From the NCBI RefSeq assembly GCF_002868845.1, contig NZ_PKUB01000052.1, forward strand, positions 53,438 through 97,536: DNA of 44,099 nucleotides, read 5' to 3'. Positions 221 to 24,514 of the stretch are shown piece by piece; within the stretch, counting starts at the first letter, position 1, and every line of letters starts with the position of its first letter. The translations under genes and the position numbers were made by a program. This DNA comes from Desulfuromonas sp. Lineage in GTDB: Bacteria > Desulfobacterota > Desulfuromonadia > Desulfuromonadales > BM501. The notes below the pieces were generated by a model, which was not told the DNA's origin, did no database searches, and was given only the letters and a program-made list of their open reading frames with translations.

Positions 221-249
221 TTGTCAGCCAATGGGGAAAGTTTTATATT
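221..249 (+). promoter_or_regulatory. Putative sigma-70 promoter of porin module 1
   Basis: TTGTCA (221-226) and TATATT (244-249) are separated by exactly 17 bp. The same geometry (TTGTGG, 17 bp, TATATT) is kept at the equivalent place in the second unit although the spacer has diverged, which supports function. Transcription would start near 256 and give a roughly 275-nt leader containing the riboswitch. Confidence 0.65.
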
Positions 250-329: not shown

Positions 330-485
330 TTCTTGGAAAAGAGCAAAGCCAGAGCAATCTGGTGACGCAAAGCCACGGATCCGGCTAAGCCGGATGGCCG
401 GGTTGCCGAAGAGAACAGCGAAATTCGCCTGGGTTCCAAGTCAGACAAGAATTACGCCCGCCTTCGGTTGAAGGACGGGTTTTTT
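330..485 (+). promoter_or_regulatory. GEMM-I riboswitch, GEMM-Ib (cyclic AMP-GMP) type, with intrinsic terminator, copy 1
   Basis: The aptamer spans about 330-415. P1 is TTCT (330-333) with AGAA (412-415). P2 is CCAGA/TCTGG (349-362) closed by a GCAA GNRA tetraloop. The conserved core TGACGCAAAGCC is at 363-374. P3 is ATCCGGC/GCCGGAT (379-395), followed by GCCGGGTTGCCGAAG. Aligned on GCAAA to the Vibrio Vc2 c-di-GMP aptamer, the base equivalent to G20 is A342. A20 is the known determinant of cGAMP (GEMM-Ib) recognition in Geobacter. The expression platform is the terminator at 457-485. CCGAAG (406-411, ligand-binding strand) can pair with CTTCGG (462-467) in the terminator stem, a plausible antiterminator. 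Ligand class is inferred from one base plus context. Confidence 0.88.
457..485 (+). terminator. Intrinsic terminator in riboswitch 1 expression platform
   Basis: The stem CCCGCCTTC / GAAGGACGGG (one bulged A) has a GGTT loop and is followed by six T. It lies 49 bp before the porin ATG, so it acts as an attenuator. The second copy keeps the structure with a compensatory C-G to T-A change in the stem. Confidence 0.85.
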
Positions 486-533
486 CTTTTTGGGCCGCAT
501 GAAGTGTTCAGAATTTTCCATTACGGAGGACTG

Positions 534-1748
534 ATGAAACGCCTGCTCCTATTTTTCCTCGCCTTTTCTTTCGGCCATCCCCTGACAGTCAGCGCTTTCG
601 AGCCGGGCCACCTCGGGATAAACGGCTTCATTTCCCAGGGTTACTTGGTCAGTTCCGGGAACAACTTTCTCGCCGACTCGACTAGCGGGACCTTCGAAGT
701 CAACGAGATGGGGGTGACCTTTCATTCACGCCTGAACGACAAACTTCGGCTCGGGCTCCAGCTTCTCTCACGCGACCTGGGGAAGGACGGGAACAACGAT
801 GTGCGCCTAGACTGGGCCATTGGGGATTACCGCTACCGGGACTGGTTTGGGGTGCGCATGGGGAAAATCAAATTACCCATAGGCCTTTACAACGAGGTGC
901 GAGACTCGGACTTCCTGCGCCCCATGGCCTTTCTTCCCCAGGGCATTTACGACGAAAACAAACGAAACTTTATGGTTTCTGCTGCCGGGGTCGGTGTCTA
1001 CGGGCACCTCCCCCTTGCGAGGCTGGGTGATGTGGACTATCAAGCCTTTGCCGGGGAAGGGGATTGCGGAGAGGATTCCGGGCAGGTCCTTCGGTTCAAG
1101 AACATGGTCAAACAAACTGCTCAACAGGAAGGACTGGGGGTGCTCACCAAGTTCGAGCCCGACAACCAGTATGTTTACGGGGGGTCAATCATCTACAACC
1201 CTCCCCTTAACGGGCTGAGGCTGGGGGCATCTTTCTTCAAGGGGCTCTCGGATTTCGAAATTGAATTGACCAACTCCCTTTCAGCCGAGCCGTTCAAAAC
1301 GGATGGAAGCGGTGGGCTGGATGACTTTTGGGTATTCTCCCTGGAATACGTCTCGTCGGAGATGACAATCTCCTCAGAATACACGGAGTTCACCTCGGTA
1401 AGGGAACTCTTTGGGACGCCAATGTCGCCCGAGAAATCGCAGGGCTGGTACGGATTGGTCAGCATACGTCCCCTGGAAAAGCTCACTTTTTCTGCACTAT
1501 ACGACCACTTCTACGCCGACAAAAACGATCATGGTGGAAAGAGCTACGAACAGATGGGCCTCCCCTCCTATGTCGCATGGCGAAAAGATTTCGGCATAGG
1601 CCTGCGCTACGACATCAACTTCAACTGGCTGGTCAAAGCCGAATGGCACCATGTGGACGGCGCCGCTCTGGGACTTGATATCTTCAATCCCGGGGGGCTC
1701 GAAAGGGACTGGAACTACTTCGTGGCCAAGGCCTCCTTTAATTTCTAA
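534..1748 (+). CDS. Outer-membrane beta-barrel porin, copy 1 (OmpJ/OprP-like)
   Basis: Predicted 404-residue outer-membrane porin. ATG 534 is chosen because ACGGAGGA sits just before it and because the longer upstream start would run through the riboswitch terminator. The protein opens with a signal peptide (MKRLLLFFLAFSFG..., cleavage likely after VSA). The rest is rich in amphipathic strands with alternating aromatic residues (NGFISQGYLVSS, LRLGLQLLSRDLG, FGIGLRYDINFNWLVKAEW) and ends in Phe (KASFNF), the usual BamA-recognised C-terminus. Alternating polar/hydrophobic strands and length fit 16- to 18-stranded diffusion porins. Geobacter OmpJ-type porins are important for respiration on metals; that this is an orthologue is inference. 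It is followed after 13 bp by a PstS-like gene and is almost certainly co-transcribed with it under the riboswitch. A near-twin lies at 2769-3983. Confidence 0.85.
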   Translation: MKRLLLFFLAFSFGHPLTVSAFEPGHLGINGFISQGYLVSSGNNFLADSTSGTFEVNEMGVTFHSRLNDKLRLGLQLLSRDLGKDGNNDVRLDWAIGDYRYRDWFGVRMGKIKLPIGLYNEVRDSDFLRPMAFLPQGIYDENKRNFMVSAAGVGVYGHLPLARLGDVDYQAFAGEGDCGEDSGQVLRFKNMVKQTAQQEGLGVLTKFEPDNQYVYGGSIIYNPPLNGLRLGASFFKGLSDFEIELTNSLSAEPFKTDGSGGLDDFWVFSLEYVSSEMTISSEYTEFTSVRELFGTPMSPEKSQGWYGLVSIRPLEKLTFSALYDHFYADKNDHGGKSYEQMGLPSYVAWRKDFGIGLRYDINFNWLVKAEWHHVDGAALGLDIFNPGGLERDWNYFVAKASFNF

Positions 1749-1761
1749 AAAGGGGAAACTG

Positions 1762-2184
1762 ATGAAACTAATGATCGTTTCAGTGCTGTTTCTCCTCGGC
1801 ATGGCCCTGGGAGATCCAAGCCAAGCTGCCGACTACGTGGTGATCAACCACCGGGAAAACCCCGTCTCCACCCTCAGCGCCCAGGAAGCCAAGAACATAT
1901 TCCTCGGAAAGAAGAGTACCTGGCCAGAGGGGGAGGCGATTACCGTCTTTCTCCAGGGACAGACAGCCGTCAACGGATCGTTTACCCGGGGGGTTGTCAA
2001 GAAGACCCCCGAGCAATTCTTCACCTACTGGCGCAAGGCTCTTTTTTCAGGGACGGGAATCCCGCCAAAGTGCCTCGCTGAAGACCGGGCCATGAAGAAG
2101 TCGGTCGCCTCAACCCCCGGTGCCATCGGGTACATCTCCCCGGAGGCGCTGGACGACACGGTCAAGGTCGTCGAAATCCGCTAA
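1762..2184 (+). CDS. Short PstS-like periplasmic (PBP-like) protein, copy 1
   Basis: 140 residues from ATG 1762 (GGGGAAACTG just upstream). The signal peptide is MKLMIVSVLFLLGMALG with likely cleavage after SQA. The mature part contains NPVSTLSAQEAKNIFLGK, FTRGVVKKTPEQFFTYWRKALFSG and PGAIGYISPEALD, the pattern of PstS-related phosphate-binding-protein domains (helix before 'IFLGK..W', then 'GAIGY'). It is about half the size of a true PstS and no Pst permease genes lie nearby, so it is unlikely to feed an ABC importer. It may bind an anion or assist the porin encoded immediately upstream. The paralogue at 3996-4418 has the same length. Confidence 0.75.
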   Translation: MKLMIVSVLFLLGMALGDPSQAADYVVINHRENPVSTLSAQEAKNIFLGKKSTWPEGEAITVFLQGQTAVNGSFTRGVVKKTPEQFFTYWRKALFSGTGIPPKCLAEDRAMKKSVASTPGAIGYISPEALDDTVKVVEIR

Positions 2185-2454
2185 CCCCCCCGGCACTTCC
2201 AGCCAATTTCGGAAACCCTGTATTTAAACAACGGCTTGAGGTTTGCCTACTGAATGACGTTTTGGCTATGGTGCCCGCTTAATATAGGTTCTTTGTCTTT
2301 CAGGGGGAGGCAGCTCATTCCCCAGACTCATCGTTTCATCGGCCTTTACTAGCCGCTTCCCCAATACTTTATTCATCCTGGTACGCCTTCCAGACCATGT
2401 GGGCGGCATCGGACTTCGTGGTTGTCTTTTAAGGGAAATATAATCAATAAATCA

Positions 2455-2483
2455 TTGTGGGCAAAAGGGGGACGTTTTATATT
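2455..2483 (+). promoter_or_regulatory. Putative sigma-70 promoter of porin module 2
   Basis: TTGTGG (2455-2460), a 17-bp spacer and TATATT (2478-2483). The position and spacing match the promoter of unit 1. The -35 is weaker here (TTGTGG against TTGTCA), so the two units may differ in basal transcription. Confidence 0.6.
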
Positions 2484-2564
2484 TACACTCGTAAGTTATC
2501 GGAAAATCTAATATTAATTTTTCGTATATTCGGAGTTTCGACTCTACAGGAGGTTGATCGCCCC

Positions 2565-2721
2565 TTCTCCCAGAAAATAGCAAAACCAGAGCGATCTGGT
2601 GACGCAAAGCCACGGATCCGGCCCAGCCGGATGGCCGGGTTGCCGAAGAGAATAGCGAAATTCCCTTGGATCTAAGTTCGATAAGAATTACGCCCGTCTT
2701 CGGTTGAAAGACGGTTTTTTT
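2565..2721 (+). promoter_or_regulatory. GEMM-I riboswitch, GEMM-Ib (cyclic AMP-GMP) type, with intrinsic terminator, copy 2
   Basis: P1 is TTCTC (2565-2569) with GAGAA (2648-2652). P2 is CCAGA/TCTGG with a GCGA tetraloop. The core is TGACGCAAAGCC, and P3 is ATCCGGC/GCCGGAT (2616-2632) with a CCA loop instead of TAA. The sequence before GCAAA is ATA, so the G20-equivalent is A2579, again the cGAMP-type base. Both tetraloops (GCAA, GCGA) remain GNRA, as required for docking on P3. CCGAAG (2643-2648) can pair with CTTCGG (2698-2703) of the terminator, as in copy 1. Differences between the copies fall mostly in loops and linkers, which indicates selection on structure. Confidence 0.88.
2694..2721 (+). 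terminator. Intrinsic terminator in riboswitch 2 expression platform
   Basis: The stem CCGTCTTC / GAAAGACGG (one bulged A) has a GGTT loop and seven T. Compared with copy 1, one C-G pair is replaced by T-A on both sides of the stem (CCTTC/GAAGG against TCTTC/GAAAGA). Confidence 0.85.
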
Positions 2722-2768: not shown

Positions 2769-3983
2769 ATGAGACGCCTGACCCTTTTGACCCTTTCACT
2801 CATCCTTGCGCTGCCCCTCAGCGCGTGGGCTTTCGAGCGTGGCCCCCTGGGAATCAACGGTTTCCTCTCTCAGGGCTACATGTACAGTTACGGGAACAAT
2901 TTCCTCGCACAGACCACCGACGGCACCTTCGAGATCAACGAAATGGGGGTGACCCTCCACTCCCGCTTGGGCGGGAAGCTCCGCCTCGGTCTTCAACTCC
3001 TCTCCCGGGACCTTGGTGAGGAGGGCAACAACGACGTGCGCCTCGACTGGGCCGTGGCCGATTACCGCCACCGTGACTGGCTCGGGCTGCGCATCGGGAA
3101 AATCAAGCTTCCGATCGGGCTCTACAACCAGGGGCGGGACTCGGATTTCCTGCGCCCCATGGCCTGGTTGCCCCAGAGTGTCTACGATGAGAACAAGCGC
3201 AACCTGCTCGTCGCCGCTGCGGGGATAGGCCTTTACGGCAACATTTTCTTTTCCGACATGGGGGATGTCGACTACCAGGTCTACGCCGGAGAGGCAGACT
3301 TCCCCGACGATTCGGGGCAGGCCCGCCGGGTGCAGAACCTGGCACAGCGCACCGCAAAACAGAAGGGGCTGGGTCTGGTCACCGATATGGACGCGGACAA
3401 CAAGTATGTCTACGGTGCCTCCCTGATCTACAATACGTCCCTGGACGGGCTCCGAATCGGGGCATCTTATTTCAACGGCAGCACCGACTTCGACATCCAA
3501 CTGACCGAATTCGGCACCGGCAAGGTGACCCAGGAAGAGGCGACTGCACGGAATAAGGATTTCGTCGTCTTCTCCCTTGAATACACCACAGGACTCTTCA
3601 CCCTCGCCTCCGAGTACACGGAGTTCACAGCGGACCGCGAGGTTTTGGGGTCCAGAGTGCCATCCCAAAGGTCCCAGGGCTGGTACGGGCAGGCCAGCGT
3701 AAGACCCCTGGAAAAACTCACTCTCTCCGTCCTTTATGACCACTTCTACGCCAACAAGGCCGACCATGGAGGGAAGGGCTTCGAGGAGATGGGGCTGCCA
3801 TCCTTTGTCGGTTGGCGAAAGGATTTCGGTGTCGCCCTGCGCTACGACATCAACTACAACTGGCTGGTCAAGGCCGAATGGCACCACGTGGACGGCGGCG
3901 CCCTGGGGTTGCAGATCTTCAACCCCGACGGTCTCGAAAAAGACTGGAACTATGCGGTGGCCAAGGCCTCGTTCAATTTCTAG
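2769..3983 (+). CDS. Outer-membrane beta-barrel porin, copy 2 (OmpJ/OprP-like)
   Basis: 404 residues, identical in length to the porin at 534-1748 and alike over the whole length (for example NGFLSQGYMYSYGNNFLAQ, LRLGLQLLSRDLG, DSDFLRPMAWLPQ, RKDFGVALRYDIN, KASFNF). ATG 2769 follows ACGGAGGAGC; an upstream in-frame start would lie almost against the terminator. Signal peptide MRRLTLLTLSLILALPLSAWA, then an amphipathic-strand barrel ending in Phe. Differences concentrate in putative loop segments (for example around TEFGTGKVTQEEATARNKD), as expected if the paralogues differ in extracellular loops or pore selectivity. It is followed after 12 bp by the second PstS-like gene. Confidence 0.85.
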   Translation: MRRLTLLTLSLILALPLSAWAFERGPLGINGFLSQGYMYSYGNNFLAQTTDGTFEINEMGVTLHSRLGGKLRLGLQLLSRDLGEEGNNDVRLDWAVADYRHRDWLGLRIGKIKLPIGLYNQGRDSDFLRPMAWLPQSVYDENKRNLLVAAAGIGLYGNIFFSDMGDVDYQVYAGEADFPDDSGQARRVQNLAQRTAKQKGLGLVTDMDADNKYVYGASLIYNTSLDGLRIGASYFNGSTDFDIQLTEFGTGKVTQEEATARNKDFVVFSLEYTTGLFTLASEYTEFTADREVLGSRVPSQRSQGWYGQASVRPLEKLTLSVLYDHFYANKADHGGKGFEEMGLPSFVGWRKDFGVALRYDINYNWLVKAEWHHVDGGALGLQIFNPDGLEKDWNYAVAKASFNF

Positions 3984-3995
3984 GAGGAGAAACCG

Positions 3996-4418
3996 ATGAG
4001 ACTGATGATTGCTTCAGTGTTGTTTCTCCTGGCAGTGGCCGCGGTCAGCGCCGCCGAGACCGCCGACTATGTGGTGATCACCCACCAGGAGAACCCCGTT
4101 TCGACTATCAGCGCCCAGGACGCCAAGAACATCTTTCTCGGCAAGAGGACCACCTGGCCCGACGGGCAGTCCATTACCGTCTTTGTCCAGGAGCAAACTG
4201 CCGCCAACGAGTCATTTACCCGGGGGGTGGTCAAAAAGACCCCCCAGCAGTTCTTCACATACTGGCGCAAAGCCCTCTTTTCCGGGACGGGAACCCCGCC
4301 GAAGAGCCTCCCGGACGACCAGACCATGAAGAGGTTCGTCGCTTCGAATCCCTTGGCCATCGGGTATATCCTCCCGGAGTCACTGGATGAGACGGTCAAA
4401 AGCTTGGAAATTCGTTAA
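3996..4418 (+). CDS. Short PstS-like periplasmic (PBP-like) protein, copy 2
   Basis: 140 residues from ATG 3996 with AGGAGGAGAAACC directly upstream. Signal peptide MRLMIASVLFLLAVAAVSA, then a domain with ENPVSTISAQDAKNIFLGK, FTRGVVKKTPQQFFTYWRK and LAIGYILPESLDE, closely matching copy 1. The function is unknown beyond a PstS-like fold. It is probably co-transcribed with the porin before it. The next gene begins only 36-45 bp later with no terminator between, so the GGDEF-EAL gene may share this transcript and the riboswitch control. Confidence 0.75.
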   Translation: MRLMIASVLFLLAVAAVSAAETADYVVITHQENPVSTISAQDAKNIFLGKRTTWPDGQSITVFVQEQTAANESFTRGVVKKTPQQFFTYWRKALFSGTGTPPKSLPDDQTMKRFVASNPLAIGYILPESLDETVKSLEIR

Positions 4419-4463
4419 ACGCCCAGACACTTTCACGATTTTTTCGGAAACCCGGTGTTGAAT

Positions 4464-7307
4464 ATGAATTTTTTCAACAGCATCAAAAAGAAAGTCTGGC
4501 TGTGCGTCAACGTGGCTTTTTTCGGCTTCCTGGTGGCTACCCTTTCGATGCTGTACTCCAACACCCAGGTGTCCGAACACCTGGCCATAACAGAGGATTT
4601 TGATTTTCCTCTAGCCCAAAAAAGTACCAGGGTACTCAACCTCTTCAAGGAGCAGAAGGCTCTCTACGAAGAGGGCTATCTCGTCGGGCAGGCGGAGTCG
4701 GTCGCCGAGGCCAACCGTCTTGGGATCGAAATCCTCGCCGTGTTCGACGAAATGCTCTCCCTCAAGGGAGACGCGCGCTACCAGCACATGGAGGAACATC
4801 GGGGCTGCGACAAGTTGATCTATATGTACCGCGAATATTTCGATCTCGCATCCCGACTCTACCCAGTTCTTGCCCGGGGCGAAGACCCGACGACACGTCT
4901 CGAGGAGGTTCGCAAGGTAGGGCTTTTCCAAACAGAACTTCTCGCCAAGCTGACCAAGTCCGCCGAAAAATACAACAAGACGGTGATCGACGACCTCGCC
5001 TTTCTGAAGGTGAGGGCCAGATACTCCAACATCTTCCTCATCAACCTGTTCGCCCTGGTTCTCCTGGTCACCCTCATCCTGGTCAATTACGTGGGCAATC
5101 GGATGCTGATCAGACCCCTGGGCCATATCAAGGAGATGGTGGGGCGCTTCGGCAGGGGCGAAACGATCCATCCGCCCGAGATGAACCTGGAGTCCCGGGA
5201 CGAGATCGCCCAGTTGGGATCCGCGTTTTTACAGATGACGGAAAACCTCCTCAAAACGACGGTTTCCAAGGCCTATGTAGACAACATCCTGGAGAATATG
5301 CGCGACGGCCTCGTGGTGGTCGGCGAGGACCTGAACATCAAAACGGTCAACAAGGCCCTTCTCGACATGCTCGGGTACGAGCAAGGGAAAGCGCTTGGGG
5401 AACAGATCGACGCCATTCTTGTAACGGCCGGGGAGGGGAGGGCGACACCGGCGACCCTTGTGTGCCAGAACGAGGAAAGAAAATTTCGGGCCAGCGATGG
5501 GAGGCAGATTCCGATCCTTTTCTCAGGGACCGAGCTTTTCGACGGGGACGGTCATACTCAGGGATACGTCTGTGTCGGGATCGACATCACCGATCTGAAA
5601 CGGGCCCAGATGAAGATCGAGGAGCAGCACCGGTTCCTGAACAATATTTTCGATTCCATCCAGCATCCCTTCTACGTCGTCAACGTGGCCGACTACACCA
5701 TATCTATGTCCAATTCCGTCTTTCGGCCCGAAGGCGGCCTCGGGGACGTCACCTGCCACCAACTGACCCACGATTCGCCGGTCCCATGCCGCGGCGAGGA
5801 GCATATCTGCCCCCTCAAGGAGGTGGTCCGGACAAAAGAACCGGTGACCACCGAACACCTCCACGGGGACCGGATTTTCGAGGTGCATGGCTATCCCATT
5901 TTCGACGCCGCCGGAGAGGTGGTCCAGATGATCGAGTATTCCCTCGACATCACCGAGCGCAAGGAAGCCGAACGGCGCCTGGCCCAACTCGCCGAGGTCG
6001 ATTTCCTGACCGGTCTGCCCAACCGCAAGGTCCTGCACGACAACCTGAAGCAGGCCCTGGCCCTGGCCCGGCGGCAGGGACAGAGGGTGGGGGTGCTGTT
6101 CCTGGACCTCGACCGGTTCAAGGTCATCAACGATTCCCTGGGTCACACCTTCGGGGACCTCCTCCTCAAGTCGGTCGGCCAGCGCTTGGCCGGGTGCCTG
6201 CGGGAGAGTGACATCATCGCCCGCTTTGGCGGTGACGAGTTCGTCGTCATCCTTCCGGGAATGGTCGAAGAGAAGGATGCCTCTCTGGCCGCAGAAAGGA
6301 TTATAGAGGGGCTGGAGGAGCCAATCGAAGTGGAAGGGCACACCATCTTCTGCTCGACCAGCATCGGCATCGCGGTCTACCCTCATGACGGGTCGGACCC
6401 GGAGGCCCTGCTGAAAAACGCCGACACAGCCATGTACCTTGCCAAGGGGCAGGGAGGCGGCTGTTATCAGTTCTTCTCCCGCGAGATGGATGTCCAGACC
6501 CAGGACCGACTGAACCTAGAAAACCAGATGCGCCGCGCCCTGCAGCAGAAGGATTTCCTCCTTCACTTCCAACCCCAGTTCGATATCCGCAACCACCAGG
6601 TCATCGGCAGCGAGGCCCTGGTTCGCTGGAAGGGTGGCGATGGGGAACTGATCCCTCCGGGCCGGTTCATTCCCCTGGCCGAGGAGACCGGCCTGATCAT
6701 CCCCCTCGGCGAATGGATTCTGCGCAGTGCCTGCGCCCAGAACAAGGCCTGGCAACGGGCCGGCCTGAAACCGACCACCGTGGCCGTCAACATTTCGGGC
6801 CGCCAGCTCCAGCAGGATGATTTCATCGGAATGGTCGAGAGAGTGCTTGAGGAGACCGGCCTCGATGCGAAGTATCTGGAACTGGAACTGACGGAAAGCA
6901 CCATCATTCAGAATGTTCAGAAAAACATTTTGATATTGCGCCGCCTCAAAGAAATGGGCATCAGCCTGGCCATCGACGATTTCGGCACCGGCTACTCATC
7001 CCTGAGCTACCTGAAGGACTTTCCCATCGACCGGCTCAAGATCGACAGGGCCTTTATCCGGCATATCGGGGAGAGGGCGGCCGACGAGGCCTTCGCCAAA
7101 GCTATCATTGCCATGTCCCGCAGCCTTGGCGTGGAGGTCCTCGCCGAGGGGGTGGAGGCCCGCTCCCAACTCGTCTTTCTTCAGCTCAACGAATGCCATC
7201 ATGCCCAGGGTTTTTTCCTCGGCAAGCCTCTCCCCGCCGACGAGTTCACCGCCCTCCTCGAGTCCCCCCGGGACCTCATCCCTTCACTGTCCCTCGTCAA
7301 GCCCTGA
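4464..7307 (+). CDS. Membrane sensor with HAMP, two PAS, GGDEF and EAL domains (c-di-GMP turnover)
   Basis: About 947 residues. ATG 4464 is preferred; GTG 4455 in the same frame is an alternative, and neither has a strong ribosome site. Order: TM1 (about 12-32), helical periplasmic sensor domain, TM2 (about 190-212), HAMP (RPLGHIKEMVGRF), PAS, a second PAS with clustered Cys/His (TCHQ...VPCRG...ICPL), GGDEF and EAL. GGDEF is intact (ARFGGDEFVV) and keeps Asp in GHTFGD, the site changed in Hypr cGAMP synthases, so it should make c-di-GMP. EAL is also intact: EALVRW, AVNISG, ELTES, AIDDFGTG, LKIDRAF, AEGVE and AQGFF. It could therefore synthesise or degrade c-di-GMP depending on the sensed signal. 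It lies directly behind the second riboswitch-porin-PstS unit. Confidence 0.92.
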   Translation: MNFFNSIKKKVWLCVNVAFFGFLVATLSMLYSNTQVSEHLAITEDFDFPLAQKSTRVLNLFKEQKALYEEGYLVGQAESVAEANRLGIEILAVFDEMLSLKGDARYQHMEEHRGCDKLIYMYREYFDLASRLYPVLARGEDPTTRLEEVRKVGLFQTELLAKLTKSAEKYNKTVIDDLAFLKVRARYSNIFLINLFALVLLVTLILVNYVGNRMLIRPLGHIKEMVGRFGRGETIHPPEMNLESRDEIAQLGSAFLQMTENLLKTTVSKAYVDNILENMRDGLVVVGEDLNIKTVNKALLDMLGYEQGKALGEQIDAILVTAGEGRATPATLVCQNEERKFRASDGRQIPILFSGTELFDGDGHTQGYVCVGIDITDLKRAQMKIEEQHRFLNNIFDSIQHPFYVVNVADYTISMSNSVFRPEGGLGDVTCHQLTHDSPVPCRGEEHICPLKEVVRTKEPVTTEHLHGDRIFEVHGYPIFDAAGEVVQMIEYSLDITERKEAERRLAQLAEVDFLTGLPNRKVLHDNLKQALALARRQGQRVGVLFLDLDRFKVINDSLGHTFGDLLLKSVGQRLAGCLRESDIIARFGGDEFVVILPGMVEEKDASLAAERIIEGLEEPIEVEGHTIFCSTSIGIAVYPHDGSDPEALLKNADTAMYLAKGQGGGCYQFFSREMDVQTQDRLNLENQMRRALQQKDFLLHFQPQFDIRNHQVIGSEALVRWKGGDGELIPPGRFIPLAEETGLIIPLGEWILRSACAQNKAWQRAGLKPTTVAVNISGRQLQQDDFIGMVERVLEETGLDAKYLELELTESTIIQNVQKNILILRRLKEMGISLAIDDFGTGYSSLSYLKDFPIDRLKIDRAFIRHIGERAADEAFAKAIIAMSRSLGVEVLAEGVEARSQLVFLQLNECHHAQGFFLGKPLPADEFTALLESPRDLIPSLSLVKP

Positions 7308-10757: not shown

Positions 10758-12767
10758 ATGAAAGACACCTCCTACTGGCCAGCAGTCCCAAACCGTAAAA
10801 ATGCGGCTCTCCGGGTCGTTGCTGGCTACCTGCTGTTTTGGGGGGCATGGTCCCTATTTGCCGCCAACGTTCTGGAATTGGTCGTCCCCGCGTCTTCTCC
10901 GGGTCTGCTCAAAGGTCTTAAGGAAGGGCTTTTTATTTGTTTCTCGGCCGTCCTGGTCTTTGCCCTGGTGCGCGGCAACCTCTCTTCGCAGCGACGGGAA
11001 GACGAGAGGCTGCAGGAGATCATGCGGGGGGTTTCTGCCCAGGTGGGAGACGCTTTTTTCGACCAGCTTTCCCTTCAACTCAGCCGGGCGTTGAACGTAG
11101 AGTATGCCTTTATCGGACAATTCGATGATCAGAACGGCGACGAGTTGAAAACCGTGGCGGTCTCGGTGCGGGGGAAAAAACGAGCCAATTTCATCGACCC
11201 TCTCGAGGGATCCCCCTGCGGCGAAATCAGGGACGGGCACTCCTTCTGCCTGGCTGAGGATGCGCGGCGGCACTTTCCCCACTCCCCGCTCCTGTCTGAG
11301 CGGGGAGTGGAGAGCTTCGTCGGCACCCCCCTGTTCGATTCGGACGATAACCCCATGGGCCTCATCGCAGTGATGGATGGCCGGCCGATCACCGACCGTT
11401 ACCGGGCCGAATCGATGCTGAGGATTTTTGCCGCCCGCGCTTCCGCGGAGCTGGAGCGACAACGCAATGAAAACGCCATCGCCCGGCTGGCATTTTACGA
11501 CTCCGTCACCGGTCTGCCCAAGCAGCAACTGTTCAAAGAGCGGCTCGACGAGGCCATTGCCGCGGCCAGGCTCAAGGGACAGGAATTGGAGGTCCTTTAC
11601 CTGGACTTCGATCGTTTCCGGACCATTGTAAGGACCCTGGGCCATCCCGCAGAAGAGGTTCTTCTCAAGGAGATCTCCGGGCGGCTGTCCGATGCCCTTG
11701 AGGGGGAGGAGTTCCTCGCCCAGGCAGGAAGCGACGAGTTTCTACTGATGGCCACAGACGTTGAATCCCCCGAGAAGGCCGAAGGGCTGGCCTCTCGACT
11801 GCTCGAAGCCCTGCAGGCCCCCTTCAGCTACCAGGGGCACTCCCTGCACCTGTCGGCGAGCATCGGCCTGGCCATGTTTCCCTATGACGGCGAGGACACC
11901 GAGACCATGATAAGGAACGCCGACGCGGCGAGAACTCGAACCAAGCAGATGGGGGGGAATCACTATCAGTTTTACTTCCCGGATATCGGGAACTACTCTC
12001 TCAGTGCCCTAATCCTTGAAAACCGTCTTCATCAGGCTCTTGAAAAGGATGAGTTCGCCCTGCGATACCAGCCGCAGATGAATCTGCGCACTGGCCTCGT
12101 CGAGGGCATGGAAGCACTCGTGTTCTGGAAGCAACCCGAGGCGAAACCGGTCGGCCCCTCCGATTTCATCCCCCTGGCGGAGGAGACCGGTCTGATCGAC
12201 CCTATCGGCGAGTGGGTTCTGCGCGAGGCCTGCGTGCAGAATCGCAGGTGGCAAGAGGCGGGACTGCCACCACAGCGGATGTCGGTCAACGTCTCTGCGC
12301 GGCAGTTTTTTCAGAGCAGCATTGTGGAACTGGTCGCCAGGATACTGGAGGAAACGGGTCTGGAGGGGCGGTGGCTGGGGCTGGAGATCACCGAAAGCGT
12401 GATCATGCAAGATGTCAAGCAGGCCATCGATACCCTGCATCAACTTAAGGCGATGGGAGTTCAGGTTATTATCGACGATTTTGGAACGGGGTACTCATCC
12501 CTGAGCTACCTCAAGCAGTTCCCCATCGACACGTTGAAACTCTACCAGTCCTTTGTTGCCGGGATTCCGGACGATACCGGCGACAAGGCGATCACGGCAG
12601 CGGTGATCGCCATGGCTCATACTCTGAACTTGGAGTTGGTCGCCGAGGGGGTCGAGAAGGCGGAACAGCGTGACTTCCTCAGCGAAAAGGGCTGCGACAA
12701 GATCCAGGGGTTCCTTTTCAGCGTTCCCCTCAAAGCCGAGGAGGTCACGGAGCTTCTTTCCGGATGA
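10758..12767 (+). CDS. Membrane-anchored GAF-GGDEF-EAL protein with degenerate catalytic motifs
   Basis: 669 residues from ATG 10758 (GGGAGAACGGCG upstream). Two N-terminal TM segments (about 20-42 and 52-72) precede a cytoplasmic GAF domain (about 90-235), GGDEF (about 245-405) and EAL (about 420-665). The GGDEF domain is degenerate: GSDEF replaces GGDEF, the guanine-contact Asn is Val (RTIVRTLGH), and the Asp after GH is Glu. The EAL domain keeps [26 protein letters not shown] and IQGF, but the Arg of ExLxR is Phe (EALVFW) and the Asp of LKxD is Tyr (LKLYQ). It may therefore be a weak phosphodiesterase or a c-di-GMP-binding effector rather than a turnover enzyme. TTGACT at about 10689 may mark a promoter, but no convincing -10 follows. 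Confidence 0.88.
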
Positions 12768-17069: not shown

Positions 17070-18200
17070 ATGAGATCCTATTTTTACCTGGGGATGCTTG
17101 TGGCTGGCGGGATCTGCCTTCTCGGACTTGCCGCATGTACGGACATCGGCTACTACGCCCAGTGCGCCCGGGGCCATCTGGACATCATGGGCCGGTGCCG
17201 CCCCATCGCCGAAATCCTTGACGACCGAGAAGCCTCCCCCGAGCTTAAAAGCCGGCTGTCGCAGGTCCTGGAGATCCGCGATTTCGCCAGCGCAGAACTT
17301 CTCCTCCCCGAAAACGGCAGCTATCGCTCCTATGCCGACCTGGGCCGGCCCTATGTGGTCTGGAACGTGGTCGCGGCCCCCGAGTTCTCTCTCAGCCCCA
17401 TGCAGTGGTGTTTCCCGATAGCCGGCTGCGTTTCCTACCGGGGGTATTTCTCCCACGAGGAAGCCGGAACCGCGGCCCGGCAACTCGAAGCCGAGGGGCT
17501 CGACGTCTACCTGTACGGTGTGACCGCCTATTCGACCCTCAACTGGTTCGACGACCCCGTTCTCAACACCTTTTGCCAAGGACCCGAGACCTCCGTCGCG
17601 GGGTTGATCTTTCACGAACTTGCCCATCAGAAGCTATACGTCAAGGGGGACTCGTCCTTCAATGAGGCGTTCGCCAAGGCGGTGGAACTGGAGGGGGTCC
17701 GCCGTTGGCTCGACAGCCGGGGAGAGTCCGAAGAGATGGAACGGTACCGAGCAAAACTGGACCGGGAAGAGGAATTTGTCTCCCTCGTGATGCAGTCCCG
17801 GGAAACCCTCGACGCCCTCTACCAAGGGGATCTCGATCTCACCGCCAAACGGGCGGCCAAACAAAGAATCATCGCTTCGCTGCGAGATGACTACCGGGAG
17901 ATGAAGGACCGTTGGGGAGGGTACGCCGGCTATGACCGATGGTTCGGCGAACAGCTCAACAATGCCAAACTGGCTTCGATGAGCACCTATCGTCTGCTCG
18001 TGCCCGCTTTTCAGGAGTTGCTGATCAGGGAAGGGGGCATGAACGACTTCTTCCGGGCAGCGGAAAGAATCGGGCGGCAGCCACCCGGTCAAAGGGCGGC
18101 CGAGATGGCACGACTCCTTGACTCCGCCGAGATGCAACACGACACGACTTCAGCCCCGTCACGCCAGGTTCGGGGAGAAGATAAGACGGTTTCACGATAG
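17070..18200 (+). CDS. Predicted lipoprotein aminopeptidase (Aminopep/DUF2265-type zinc protease)
   Basis: 376 residues. The signal ends LLGLAACTDIGYYAQ, a lipobox Cys. The zinc motif is IFHELAHQKLYVKGDSSFNEAFAKAVE (HExxH with a downstream Glu). YYAQCARGHLDIM, FSLSPMQWCFPIAGCVSYRGYF and FNEAFA are characteristic of the PF10023-like putative aminopeptidases of proteobacteria. It is likely anchored in the periplasm. The C-terminal 20 residues (QHDTTSAPSRQV...) look unstructured. Its 3' end overlaps by 9 bp the convergent GGDEF-EAL gene. Confidence 0.88.
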   Translation: MRSYFYLGMLVAGGICLLGLAACTDIGYYAQCARGHLDIMGRCRPIAEILDDREASPELKSRLSQVLEIRDFASAELLLPENGSYRSYADLGRPYVVWNVVAAPEFSLSPMQWCFPIAGCVSYRGYFSHEEAGTAARQLEAEGLDVYLYGVTAYSTLNWFDDPVLNTFCQGPETSVAGLIFHELAHQKLYVKGDSSFNEAFAKAVELEGVRRWLDSRGESEEMERYRAKLDREEEFVSLVMQSRETLDALYQGDLDLTAKRAAKQRIIASLRDDYREMKDRWGGYAGYDRWFGEQLNNAKLASMSTYRLLVPAFQELLIREGGMNDFFRAAERIGRQPPGQRAAEMARLLDSAEMQHDTTSAPSRQVRGEDKTVSR

Positions 18201-21200
18201 GCCGGCCGGACTCGGCAGAACGCCCTTCTCCCTTTTGGGGGCCTGGCGGTCCTTCATGTGGTTCACGCTGAATGATTCTGCGGGAAGGGGGGGGCTGTAG
18301 ATGTAGCCCTGCACTTCGTCACAGCCGATGGAGCGGAGAAAGTCGAGTTGCTCTGTCCTCTCAACGCCCTCGGCGATCACCCGGATGTTCAGAGAGTGGG
18401 CCATCTCCACGATATGTCGGGCGATTTTGGCTTCGCTTTCGTTGTGGGGGAGGTTGCTGACGAAAGAGCGGTCCACTTTCAGCAGGTCGACGGGAAAGTC
18501 CTTCAGGTAGCTCAAGGAAGAATACCCTACCCCGAAATCGTCGATGGCCACCGAGACCCCCATGTCTCTCAGGTCGCAGAGCCTTGCATCGGTCTGCTTG
18601 ACGTCCTTTACGACAAGGCTTTCGGTGATCTCCAGATCAAGCCACCGGGGGTCGAAATCGAGTTCCTTCAGAATATCGTTCAAGATATCAAGAAAATCAT
18701 CATTCTGGAACTGCTGGGCCGACACGTTGATCCCGATCCGGATCGGCCGGCCCCCCGCTTCCTGCCAGGCTTTGGCTTGACTGCACGCGGTTTTCATCAC
18801 CCAGAACCCGATATCCGAGATCAGCCCGATCTCCTCGGCGAGGGGGATGAACACCTCCGGAGGTATCAGGTCCCCCGAGGGGTGCTGCCACCGGACCAGG
18901 GCCTCCATGCCTGCGACGCGGCCCGTGGCAAGATCGACCTGCGGCTGATAGAGGACGCGCAGTTCGCAGTGGGGCAGGGCACTGCGCAGGCCGTTCTCCA
19001 GTTCCATCCGTTCCAGGGCCCCCGCGTTCATCGCCGGGGCGAAAAACTGGTAATTGTTTTTCCCCAGGTCCTTCGCCCGGTAAAGGGCGACATCCGCGTT
19101 CTTGATCAGGGTAAGAACCTCCTCGCCATCCTTGGGATATATGACAATACCGATGCTGCACGAGACATGAAGGTCATGCCCGGCTATCTTGAAGGGCCAC
19201 TGAAGGGAATTCAATATCTTGTGGGCGACAAGTCCCGCATCGGATTCGTGGCGAATGGGCGCGAGAAGGATATTGAACTCGTCCCCGCCAAACCTGCTCA
19301 CCGTGTCGGTTTCCCTCACGCAGTCAAGAAGCCGCTTTGAGACTTCCTTCAGGAGCATATCTCCAGCATCGTGACCGAGGGTGTCGTTGATGGTCTTGAA
19401 GTTGTCCAGGTCAACGAACATCAGGCCGACCACATTGCCGTTGCGGTTGGCGAAGGCCAGCGCCTTCTCGACATGGTCCCGGAACAGTGGGCGGTTGGGC
19501 AGGTCGGTCAGCGGGTCGTGGTAGGCCAGATGCTTGATGGTCTCCTCGGCCTCCTTGCGTTCGGAAATGTCCATCAGCGTCCCCAGGATCGCCCCCCTGC
19601 CGTCGTACATCCCCCATCCGTTGAGAACCTCGACGTTGATCGTGCGACCCTCCTTGCGCACCCCCTGGAATTGATACTGAAGGTTGCGGACCTCGGCAAG
19701 CGAGAGTCTTCGGAGGTTTCCGGAAACAAAAACCTTGTCTTCCCGGGCAACGAGATCTACGGGGGTGATCCCATTCAGCAACTCCTCCTGGGAATAGCCG
19801 AAAATCTCGGCGAATCGCGGATTGACGTAGGAGAAGCTGTCTCCGTGGATAATGAAGACTCCGACCAGGGTGTTTTCGATCAGAAAACGATATTTCGATT
19901 CTGCGGTTTCCAGCTCGGCCATCAGGTTTTCGATCCGTTGGCGGCGGTCCATCTCGTTCTGAAGCTTGCGCCCCGTCCTGAAAACCTCCCAATTGCGCTG
20001 CGCTTTGACCCCGTCAATGGTTTCTTCGGCGTTCTCCCTGGTGCGGTGGGTCTCATCGTACGATTTTTTCAAGTCCACAGCGAGGGACTTAAAGTTTTCC
20101 ACCAGGGTGCCGACTTCGGAGATGGTGCCGGAGGGCCAGGTAATCTCCTGGTTTTCACGGAGTCTCTCGGGCAAGCTTTCACTGACCCGGGCGAGTTCCC
20201 GCAGGGGCTGAACCATGCGTCGACTTGCGACACAGGCAAGGAGGATGGCGAGGCCGGCCGGCACAGCCATGATGGCCATACTGTGAACGTAGAGCCTCTC
20301 GAGGTGTGCCTGATGTATCGCCTGGGGCACCTCCACGGCCAGTTGCCAGGGAACCGAGCGGTCCACCGAAATCCTTCGGGTCAGAAGGTCCTGCCAGGGC
20401 AGCAAGGGAACCAGTTTTTGCTCGACCGGGTTCCAGAGGTAGTGGAGCAGGTTCAGGGTCTGTCTTTTTTGATTGAAAAACGGCTCGACAGGCCTCCTGT
20501 TTGCGTTGCTGCTCGAAACGACCTGGTTTCGGTCATCGAGCAGGGTCAGTGAAAGACCGGCGGGCAGAGACATGTCCTGGAGAAGGGCAGTGACGGGGGA
20601 CATGTCGATGGTTCCCAGAACAAAACCGGCGAAGCCGGACTTCCTCTGGATAGGGGTTCCCAGCTGGACGATTGGGGAAGAAGAGGGGCCCAGTTTCTGG
20701 ATTCCGCTCAGGAGAGGGTGGGGAGAAGATCGGAGGCTCTCTAGAAAGTTGGGCCGAATCGCTTCACCGGCCGTTTTGCTCGAAGACCTGGCCCGCGCCA
20801 GCGGATTCCCTTCGGGATCGAGCACGCAAAGGTCGGCCAACTCTGGACAGTTACGGGCAAAGGTGTCGGTTTTATCCTGAAGCAGCCGAGTCTGTCTCAG
20901 CCCCTCCTTGGAGGCCACGCCTGCCAGTTCGGTTTGGGCCAGGGTCGCCTTGCTCATGAGTGAGGCCAGTTTGGCCTGGACGACATTGCACTCGATCGTC
21001 AGCTTCTGAGCCAGATCCGGTTTGAGAGCATCGGTCATTGCCGTCAGGTTGAGGGCCATGACAAGGACCGTGGGCGTCAGGAAACAGACCAGAATCATAT
21101 TGAAATAGTGTTCCCAGAGGGACAGCCCGGGGAAGACATTGCGGCGGGCATCTATCAACCGAAGCAGGCCGGTGGCGATAAGGGCGTTGGCCGCCCCGTT

Positions 21201-21578
21201 GGCTCCCTGAATCGCCATGAGACGGGATGTCGCTTCCGGGTCCACCTTGAGGATCACACTGAAGAAGAACCAGAACAGGGGAAGCCCGAAGAAGAGCCAG
21301 TAGCCCAGGTCGGCAAGCAGGAGGTTTGCCGCCCCGCGCCTGAGGATCATGCCGACCACCAGGGCCTCGCCGACGAACAGAATGGCGAAGAAGGGGTGAT
21401 GGAGCAGGGCGAGGGTGTGCATTCCGGAGAGAAGGGCTGCCGCCACGCCCCAGCGCACCCCGTACTGCTTTACCACCAAGAGGACCGCAACGCCGCCAAG
21501 GTAAACGGTCCCTTCAGGGAAGAGGCTAAGGGGGATGATGTTGCCGGCCATCGATGCTACCAACAAGATGCCGAGCAT
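18192..21578 (-). CDS. Polytopic sensor with extracytoplasmic domain, HAMP-like linker, PAS, GGDEF and EAL
   Basis: About 1128 residues from ATG 21578 (MLGILLVASMAGN, GGGAG upstream). A longer frame to 21767 is rejected because it would include the likely promoter. Order: an N-terminal block of about 7 TM helices like MASE-type domains (about 1-165), another TM near 185, a large extracytoplasmic region (about 210-430) of Cache-like character, a TM near 440-460, HAMP-like and coiled-coil, PAS (about 580-690), GGDEF and EAL. GGDEF is intact (SRFGGDEFNI) with Asp kept in GHDAGD. EAL is intact (EALVRW, GINVSA, EITES, AIDDFGVG, LLKVDRSF, AEGVE, VQGY). It is likely to turn over c-di-GMP in response to an external signal. 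Confidence 0.92.
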   Translation of the reverse strand: MLGILLVASMAGNIIPLSLFPEGTVYLGGVAVLLVVKQYGVRWGVAAALLSGMHTLALLHHPFFAILFVGEALVVGMILRRGAANLLLADLGYWLFFGLPLFWFFFSVILKVDPEATSRLMAIQGANGAANALIATGLLRLIDARRNVFPGLSLWEHYFNMILVCFLTPTVLVMALNLTAMTDALKPDLAQKLTIECNVVQAKLASLMSKATLAQTELAGVASKEGLRQTRLLQDKTDTFARNCPELADLCVLDPEGNPLARARSSSKTAGEAIRPNFLESLRSSPHPLLSGIQKLGPSSSPIVQLGTPIQRKSGFAGFVLGTIDMSPVTALLQDMSLPAGLSLTLLDDRNQVVSSSNANRRPVEPFFNQKRQTLNLLHYLWNPVEQKLVPLLPWQDLLTRRISVDRSVPWQLAVEVPQAIHQAHLERLYVHSMAIMAVPAGLAILLACVASRRMVQPLRELARVSESLPERLRENQEITWPSGTISEVGTLVENFKSLAVDLKKSYDETHRTRENAEETIDGVKAQRNWEVFRTGRKLQNEMDRRQRIENLMAELETAESKYRFLIENTLVGVFIIHGDSFSYVNPRFAEIFGYSQEELLNGITPVDLVAREDKVFVSGNLRRLSLAEVRNLQYQFQGVRKEGRTINVEVLNGWGMYDGRGAILGTLMDISERKEAEETIKHLAYHDPLTDLPNRPLFRDHVEKALAFANRNGNVVGLMFVDLDNFKTINDTLGHDAGDMLLKEVSKRLLDCVRETDTVSRFGGDEFNILLAPIRHESDAGLVAHKILNSLQWPFKIAGHDLHVSCSIGIVIYPKDGEEVLTLIKNADVALYRAKDLGKNNYQFFAPAMNAGALERMELENGLRSALPHCELRVLYQPQVDLATGRVAGMEALVRWQHPSGDLIPPEVFIPLAEEIGLISDIGFWVMKTACSQAKAWQEAGGRPIRIGINVSAQQFQNDDFLDILNDILKELDFDPRWLDLEITESLVVKDVKQTDARLCDLRDMGVSVAIDDFGVGYSSLSYLKDFPVDLLKVDRSFVSNLPHNESEAKIARHIVEMAHSLNIRVIAEGVERTEQLDFLRSIGCDEVQGYIYSPPLPAESFSVNHMKDRQAPKREKGVLPSPAGLS

Positions 21579-21628
21579 GGGGAAGGCTCCCGGTTCGAGG
21601 TGACAACTTAAAAGATTACAACCAGTTA

Positions 21629-21656
21629 AGCTTACCGGATGCCTGCCTTCTGTCAA
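21629..21656 (-). promoter_or_regulatory. Putative promoter of the polytopic GGDEF-EAL gene
   Basis: On the minus strand TTGACA (21656-21651), a 16-bp spacer and TAAGCT (21634-21629), about 50 bp before ATG 21578. The -35 is perfect and the -10 is weak. Confidence 0.5.
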
Positions 21657-21824
21657 CCTGTTGCCGGGGAGATCGGCGACGAAAAGGAGCCTGAGCGCCG
21701 GGCCCGCATCTCCGGACCAAAGGAACACCGGGGACCCGCCCTTTTGTCCTTTACAAACCGGTATCATTTCTATAGTCTAAATGATTGGGTAAAAGTAACA
21801 ATAACCTCGTTTTTTTAGGTAGTT

Positions 21825-24347: not shown

Positions 24348-24378
24348 CCGAAAAATTTAGTTGAACGTCCCTTTTAAG

Positions 24379-24482
24379 TTAATCCAGAGAGGTTAGCAAA
24401 GGTGGCAAAATGCAAGAAACGGCACCCAGCCGTCATTAGATATCAGAGTACCTTTCCGCCTGGCGCGGAAAGGTACTTTTTT
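24379..24482 (+). promoter_or_regulatory. PyrR-dependent attenuator (PyrR-binding RNA plus terminator)
   Basis: 24381-24402 reads AATCCAGAGAGGTTAG then CAAAGG, matching the PyrR binding-loop consensus (A-R-U-C-C-N-G-N-G-A-G-G-Y-U) of Bacillus pyr leaders. A strong intrinsic terminator (24447-24482) lies between it and pyrR. In the known mechanism UMP-bound PyrR stabilises the anti-antiterminator and causes termination, so high pyrimidine levels would switch off pyrR-pyrB-pyrC and probably carA-carB. Confidence 0.85.
24447..24482 (+). terminator. Attenuator terminator before pyrR
   Basis: Stem AGTACCTTTCCGC paired with GCGGAAAGGTACT, loop CTGGC, followed by a run of six T. Very stable, so readthrough must be regulated. 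Confidence 0.9.
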
Positions 24483-24514
24483 GTGTTCAGGCCAGAGTAA
24501 GGGAGGGTTGGACC

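Follow-up and report, generated by a model that had tools for sequence, protein, structure and literature searches.

Which second messenger do the two GEMM-I riboswitches at one end of this stretch of DNA sense, and in which direction do they switch the genes behind them? The stretch, called the window throughout, comprises 44,099 nucleotides (nt) of Desulfuromonas sp. (assembly GCF_002868845.1, contig NZ_PKUB01000052.1, positions 53,438 to 97,536), a member of the order Desulfuromonadales in the class Desulfuromonadia. The two aptamers precede two copies of a gene pair encoding a porin-like and a PstS-like protein. The proposed answer, to which a probability of roughly 0.55 is given, is that both are GEMM-I riboswitches acting on transcription, with an adenine of the type known from receptors of 3',3'-cyclic AMP-GMP (cGAMP) at position 20 (A20, numbering of Vc2) on an OFF scaffold of the cyclic di-GMP (c-di-GMP) type. 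Compared with the first reading of this DNA, a preliminary description that assigned the leaders to cGAMP, what is chiefly new is the sign, OFF, and the sensor operon.

Two GEMM-I aptamers are found in the window by Rfam cmscan, each with A20 according to the alignments:

333 to 411, plus strand: GEMM-I aptamer, copy 1 (RF03168, 70.2 bits, E 2.3e-13)
2570 to 2648, plus strand: GEMM-I aptamer, copy 2 (RF03168, 68.6 bits, E 6.4e-13)
342, plus strand: A at Vc2 position 20, copy 1
2579, plus strand: A at Vc2 position 20, copy 2

Both scores lie above the RF03168 gathering score of 65.9. A342 and A2579 stand directly 5' of GCAAA, are placed in model column 10 with the highest confidence symbol, and are equated with position 20 via the Vc2 pocket nucleotides given in PMC7288161. 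An alignment placing G at position 20 of the window aptamers was looked for, and none was found. A47 and C92 are present in both copies, the P2 stems are capped by the GNRA loops GCAA and GCGA, and zero pairs of P2 and P3 are marked as broken in the Rfam alignment. It is practically certain that these RNAs are real GEMM-I aptamers, and the preliminary description is borne out in its A20 assignment and in its statement that GNRA loops, core and P3 are intact.

The best Rfam family of both aptamers, RF03168, is named c-di-GMP-I-UAU, in which UAU presumably refers to positions 20, 47 and 92. Its consensus has U in the columns of positions 20 and 92, where the window aptamers have A and C; the label is therefore unfit for these RNAs and was rejected as a ligand class. 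The 3' end GCCGGG-x-TGCCGAA, put forward earlier as a likeness to cGAMP-binding aptamers, is present in the window but was discarded as a mark of cGAMP, as it is common among aptamers with G at position 20 (G20). It is shared by 17 of 25 of these in a smaller set, and among the aptamers sampled from other genomes of the order it occurs in 57 of 82 with G20/G21-C46 and in 13 of 16 with A20.

The surroundings of A20 set the window RNAs apart from the GEMM-Ib aptamers of Geobacter (Gm0970, pilM, pgcA), with which they had been grouped. A20, A47, C92 and the GNRA-capped P2 are shared. The lower P2 pair differs: both window aptamers have G21-C46, whereas GEMM-Ib has the inverted pair C21-G46 in the 13 aptamers read. 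These belong to three Geobacter-like genomes, near relatives of G. sulfurreducens and G. metallireducens (best GacA match 95%, in genome G157), in which 13 of 14 A20 aptamers are A20/C21-G46. The exception, L228 in genome G161, is A20/G21-C46 and precedes a gene for a cytochrome weakly resembling OmcS (E 1.7e-6). In the crystallised cGAMP riboswitch Gm0970, A14 is followed by a C15-G40 pair (PMC6274999). Most GEMM-Ib members also have a GATA/TATC P1, judged by eye.

Covariance models separate the two groups as well. Model R1, whose structure line mispairs P3 columns, served only for finding and aligning aptamers; positions 20, 21, 46 and 47 precede its variable loop. The GEMM-Ib model R2 and the model R3, which represents the order's G20 aptamers and contains no sequences of the window's own genome, have structures from RNAalifold. 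With R2 the window copies score 32.4 (copy 1) and 37.2 bits (copy 2), with R3 88.5 and 86.6 bits. An aptamer before a PilM-like protein (L238), itself part of R2, reaches 96.1 bits with that model, and scores of at least 81.3 bits are seen in a group of high scorers from other genomes of the order that did not enter the model. The window copies score high with R3 and low with R2 and therefore represent A20 on a G20 scaffold; the supposed kinship with Geobacter GEMM-Ib is not upheld. Canonical Geobacter-type GEMM-Ib was not found in the own genome: of 2530 first-look candidates 150 were scored with R2, the highest score was 49.5 bits, and all nine R2 matches are aptamers already listed.

This combination recurs in the order. 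Outside the own genome, 102 aptamers from 65 genomes divide into 16 A20/G-C, 82 G20/G-C, two G20/C-G, one C20/G-C and one unreadable case, the 16 A20/G-C aptamers coming from 15 other genomes. The set consists of the best RF03168 matches, their tandem neighbours and three porin leaders and is not a random sample; C-G types and canonical GEMM-Ib were under-sampled in it until the R2 search. A parallel exists in Vc2 G20A (PDB 4YB1, PMC6274999), a reported cGAMP binder with the same G-to-A change on a GEMM-I c-di-GMP scaffold. Vc2 G20A was engineered from a Vibrio c-di-GMP riboswitch, whereas the window combination is natural. Canonical c-di-GMP-I (GEMM-Ia) has G at position 20, from which the window RNAs deviate while matching the scaffold.

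Three further observations concern the family in these genomes. In the order, tandem GEMM-I elements in close succession are common and repeat at intervals of about 135-295 nt (for example L088, L085, L091, L102, L306, L308 and L314). G20 with C21-G46 is seen at L324, L326, L327, L229, L011 and other loci, several with an ON-type terminator; c-di-GMP ON switches are expected to lie in this combination. An unusual lower P2 occurs at L332 (1501-1575), where A20 is followed by A21 opposite C46 and the terminator contains TTCGG.

The sign of the switches was deduced from the following elements of the two leaders:

406 to 411, plus strand: CCGAAG, 3' strand of the aptamer starting at C92, copy 1, with its predicted partner at 462-467
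457 to 479, plus strand: separate intrinsic terminator, copy 1, with CTTCGG at 462-467, then a T run
2643 to 2648, plus strand: CCGAAG, predicted antiterminator strand, copy 2
2694 to 2714, plus strand: separate intrinsic terminator, copy 2, with CTTCGG at 2698-2703, then TTTTTTT

In copy 1, positions 457-460 pair with 476-479 and 461-465 with 470-474. The terminator stem is kept in both copies despite differing bases. The terminator scan of the window found 8 overall versus 6.1 expected. As the automated scripts chose a start-codon-proximal hairpin in copy 2, the terminator of this copy is taken from other folds and was counted by eye.

Partition functions of growing transcripts predict that the antiterminator, formed by CCGAAG and the 5' arm of the terminator, precedes the complete terminator in both copies and persists only in copy 2. 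Its pairing probability is 0.74-1.0 at transcript ends 2702-2710 in copy 2 and 0.51 at end 470 in copy 1. With CCGAAG forced unpaired, the terminator pairs of copy 2 rise from 0.12-0.28 to 0.43-1.0. Such an arrangement resembles Cd1 of Clostridioides difficile, a c-di-GMP OFF switch with the antiterminator pair G147-C87 (PMC9262584). Both have a separate terminator and an antiterminator that pairs the pocket cytosine, C87 in Cd1, with a downstream strand; Cd1 differs from the window RNAs in having G at the equivalent of position 20 (G11) and c-di-GMP as its ligand. A Cd1-type OFF platform is thus predicted firmly in copy 2 and transiently in copy 1.

Comparison across leaders points in the same direction. 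Of 94 hairpins of G21-C46 riboswitches, 57 have TTCGG, the complement of the aptamer sequence CCGAA that starts at C92, in their 5' arm or loop, versus 2 of 50 other terminators; the two counts come from different hairpin finders, and riboswitch terminators may be among the 50, as the window, L066 and L067 are in the set. TTCGG is by far the commonest of its 5-mer anagrams with 57 occurrences, the next one (18) being an overlapping shift. Among G21-C46 leaders of the own genome and the order with at least 100 nt downstream, the terminator arm contains TTCGG in 14 of 23 with A20 and in 43 of 82 with G20.

The Geobacter-like A20/C-G aptamers are built differently. Their terminator overlaps the aptamer in all nine that were folded, a separate TTCGG hairpin was found in none of 13, and in 10 of 13 the T run is preceded by the complement of the aptamer P3 strand. 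In GEMM-Ib the terminator thus uses the aptamer 3' strand, which gives an ON switch, whereas the separate terminator of the window predicts an OFF switch; pilM, for example, is an ON switch whose terminator takes C75 (PMC9262584). Among 42 R2 matches, the ON layout occurs in 21 of 31 with A20 and C21 (19 of 27 with G46 read) and in four of seven with G20/C21-G46; none was found for the window leaders. Terminator-aptamer overlap was flagged for the A20/G-C leaders L004, L103 and L109 and for L088, each of which has a smaller separate hairpin when inspected by eye. It is improbable that the window RNAs are ON switches selective for cGAMP and belong to the Geobacter GEMM-Ib class. The presence of A20, A47 and C92 and of a GacA-like protein in the genome would fit such switches, but C21-G46 is lacking, the R2 scores of 32-37 bits contrast with the 96.1 bits of L238, and the terminator does not overlap the aptamer, unlike that of the Geobacter members.

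Several results weigh against the OFF sign. In copy 1 the antiterminator falls to 0.00 from end 478 on and the terminator wins at equilibrium without ligand; switching of this copy would therefore have to be kinetic. Forcing CCGAAG to be unpaired leaves the copy 1 terminator unchanged (1.0 both ways). Only two of the seven A20 leaders of the own genome have TTCGG according to the script, or three including copy 2 by eye. Single antiterminator duplexes are mostly no better than shuffled arms (L002, p = 0.19), and support for the antiterminator is therefore collective. Taken with the folding predictions, these findings still leave the window riboswitches as likely OFF switches. The first reading implied ON control of the GEMM-Ib type and had left this sign out of consideration.

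In the proposed mechanism, the ligand, which would be cGAMP with probably some response to c-di-GMP, holds C92/C93 and CCGAAG in the pocket and P1. The terminator could then fold freely, and RNA polymerase would stop before the porin gene. Without ligand, CCGAAG would instead engage the CTTCGG of the terminator's 5' arm, and the polymerase would read on. Provided that the genes are cotranscribed, read-through would reach the porin-like and PstS-like genes in copy 1, and these plus a GGDEF-EAL gene in copy 2.

Whether A20 is maintained can be judged from the duplication itself. The repeated unit consists of promoter, leader, porin-like gene and PstS-like gene. DNA identity between the copies is 90% in the aptamer (71 of 79), 63% in the upstream leader, 83% in the linker with the terminator, 71% in the porin gene and 79% in the PstS-like gene, which makes the aptamer the best-kept part of the unit. 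A20 is the same in both copies, while the preceding base differs (G341 versus T2578). That A20 is neutral or degenerate, in leaders with little ligand-dependent function, is highly improbable. Decay does occur in this genome, as one aptamer (L013, 24.5 bits) looks degenerate, but the aptamer is 90% conserved between the copies versus 63-71% around it, core and GNRA loops are intact, the terminator stem survives base changes, and A20 on a G21-C46 scaffold accounts for 16 of the 102 sampled aptamers of the order.

The own genome has 14 RF03168 matches (E up to 10). Twelve are full aptamers, of which seven have A20 (L001-L005, L008, L009) and five have G20 (L006, L007, L010, L011, L012); L013 and L014 (13.5 bits) were left out of these counts, and aligned rows of fewer than 72 letters were left out of position counts. 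The A20 leaders stand before a TonB-receptor-like gene, both porin genes, two sensor-like genes (L004, L008), a PAS-GGDEF-EAL-like gene (L005; its GGDEF domain is L018) and a gene for a large secreted protein (L009), with names assigned by eye except for GGDEF. L007, on contig C26 of the own genome, is a tandem of a G20 aptamer at 1501-1580 and an A20 aptamer at about 1649-1724, some 70 nt apart. The second aptamer, identical with L013, has a degraded P3 and scores 39.1 bits with R3. The tandem lies upstream of a secreted repeat protein of 407-453 amino acids (by eye) and is possibly the relic of a two-signal leader.

A source of cGAMP is likely to exist in the same genome. Forty GGDEF matches were found, and the residue aligned to Ser348 of GacA was read in all loci but L049. 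Two loci, L041 and L043, combine serine at this Hypr position with a GGDEF motif; serine is also present in L052, there with GGDDY, L044 carries asparagine, and the remaining GGDEF loci have Asp. L043 encodes a Rec-GGDEF protein whose best PDB match, at 59% identity, is 6d9m, the GacA domain of G. metallireducens (PMC6456294), and its adjoining gene resembles hisS by its translation, judged by eye. L043 and L041 are candidate cGAMP cyclases of the Hypr type. GacA-like matches, counted irrespective of the serine, are found in 259 of 277 genomes of the class, and their presence alone therefore does not discriminate. In G. sulfurreducens, genes behind GEMM-Ib lose their transcript on deletion of GacA (PMC6456294); cGAMP therefore turns those genes on.

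Literature on the ligand is consistent with cGAMP but not with a strict choice. G20A on a GEMM-I scaffold is reported to bind cGAMP and to have served as a cGAMP sensor (PMC7288161, PMC11352751). Position 20 is regarded as a selectivity factor and not a hard filter in PMC9262584, which also cites binding of c-di-GMP to cGAMP riboswitches via protonated adenine. The OmcST riboswitch of G. sulfurreducens is described as responsive to both cGAMP and c-di-GMP (PMC6456294), and genes of G. metallireducens that are predicted to be cGAMP-activated are nevertheless raised under high c-di-GMP (PMC12285248). A20, its retention, the GacA-like protein and the G20A precedent speak for cGAMP; sequence cannot decide the ligand. 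It is somewhat favoured that the window RNAs bind cGAMP at least as well as c-di-GMP, and strict selectivity for cGAMP appears unlikely. The earlier phrase 'cGAMP, not c-di-GMP' has some support for its first half from A20, the Hypr serine of L043 and G20A; its exclusivity goes beyond the sequence evidence in view of PMC9262584 and OmcST.

The genes and promoters that belong to the duplicated unit are as follows:

221 to 249, plus strand: sigma-70-like promoter, copy 1, TTGTCA-17-TATATT, 10 of 12 consensus positions
534 to 1748, plus strand: porin-like outer-membrane protein 1, 404 amino acids
1762 to 2184, plus strand: PstS-like periplasmic protein 1, 140 amino acids, about half the length of PstS
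2455 to 2483, plus strand: promoter-like sequence, copy 2, TTGTGG-17-TATATT, identified by eye and by alignment to copy 1
2769 to 3983, plus strand: porin-like protein 2, 404 amino acids, 65% identity to copy 1
3996 to 4418, plus strand: PstS-like protein 2, 140 amino acids, 71% identity to copy 1
4455 to 7307, plus strand: HAMP-PAS-GGDEF-EAL sensor, 950 amino acids, third gene of the copy 2 operon (locus L026)

The promoter scan found four overall versus 2.0 expected and did not list the copy 2 sequence. The duplication reaches back beyond the promoters by more than 100 nt (101-260 and 2315-2495) and includes a well-kept TCATTCCCCAGAC...CTAGCCG block that could hold a regulator site. Porin-like protein 1 has zero Pfam or NCBIfam matches; two of six porin homologues tested pass the Pfam cut-off (L067 with Porin_O_P, L077 with Porin_4), and no PDB relative was found with the porin profile (best E 0.49). 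The PstS-like proteins match PF12849 with E 3e-5 (protein 1, which also matches TIGR02136 with E 2.1e-6) and E 6e-6 (protein 2), all below the cut-off and the last one just below it, and the pair matches phosphate-binding proteins in the PDB (E 5e-5). AlphaFold2 models from two sequences each are poor, with a mean pLDDT of 28.8 for the porin and 48.6 for the PstS-like protein. The GGDEF-EAL gene begins 36 nt after the PstS-like gene of copy 2, and its GGDEF domain has Asp at the Hypr position, the canonical type. The porin/PstS-like pair named as the target in the preliminary description is present, but as a target it is incomplete, since copy 2 leads into this gene. Elsewhere in the window, a PyrR binding site RNA lies at 24366-24484 (RF00515, 57.4 bits, gathering score 54), and two more genes, at 10758-12767 and 18192-21767, have GGDEF matches (contig C52, 64927-65397 and 72490-72963).

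With the porin profile, matches were obtained in 25 of 136 genomes of the order (E 1e-10) and in 39 of 277 of the class (E 1e-20), the own genome included. For 25 loci from the rest of the order, the script reports a PstS-like protein with a length of 138-152 amino acids downstream in 20; it may overlook a gene that a longer frame overlaps, and the sequence of one of the loci, L070, stops after 128 nt. Inspection by eye showed a protein sharing the N-terminus of the window sensor in 21 of the 25, or 22 with the more distant L077. In seven loci followed further, the sensors end in MCP (four) or GGDEF (two), and L337 has no Pfam match; in the window the output is GGDEF-EAL. The porin/PstS-like/sensor unit may be an envelope sensing module with an exchangeable output.

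A search of 28 porin loci with R1 identified upstream GEMM-I elements in the two own copies and in L066, L067 and L081; some loci, such as L063 and L059, hold little upstream sequence, so that a riboswitch could be missed there. Among six loci from other families of the class, a single weak GEMM-I match (8.4 bits, E 0.82) appeared and was not counted. The leaders of L066, L067 and L081 are all G20, and the control of the porin operon in other genomes looks, from its sequence, like c-di-GMP control. These leaders count against the reading preferred here; together with the scaffold, the view of position 20 as a soft filter and OmcST, they argue for c-di-GMP or for both ligands. The window RNAs might, less probably, be OFF switches for c-di-GMP in which A20 is tolerated; the operon would then be under c-di-GMP feedback, with cGAMP as a minor ligand at most. 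In scaffold and platform they are the same as the order's G20 aptamers, PMC9262584 regards position 20 as no hard filter and cites c-di-GMP binding via protonated adenine, and the GGDEF-EAL gene that follows in copy 2 has the canonical Asp. On the other side, A20 has persisted in the two copies despite their divergence and in seven of 12 own aptamers, which drift would not favour, and the G20A change in GEMM-I yields a reported cGAMP binder.

Under the preferred reading of a cGAMP-type A20 on an OFF scaffold, GEMM-I may tentatively be regarded as a two-by-two set, in which the ligand (position 20) and the sign (21-46 pair and platform) are independent. The window RNAs would be natural cGAMP OFF switches and thus fill the least known cell. 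A description of A20 GEMM-I OFF switches was not found in the literature searched, which leaves subscription papers mostly outside and is no proof of novelty. Such RNAs could form a cGAMP regulon in a genome where canonical GEMM-Ib was not found, coupling cGAMP to envelope sensing and c-di-GMP turnover via the porin/PstS-like/GGDEF-EAL operon. If this is true, cGAMP can also silence genes, and the choice of ligand evolves separately from the direction of switching. Annotation that relied on nothing but position 20, or nothing but the Rfam name, would then mislead. The porin operon, with G20 leaders in three other genomes and A20 here, offers a direct test case.

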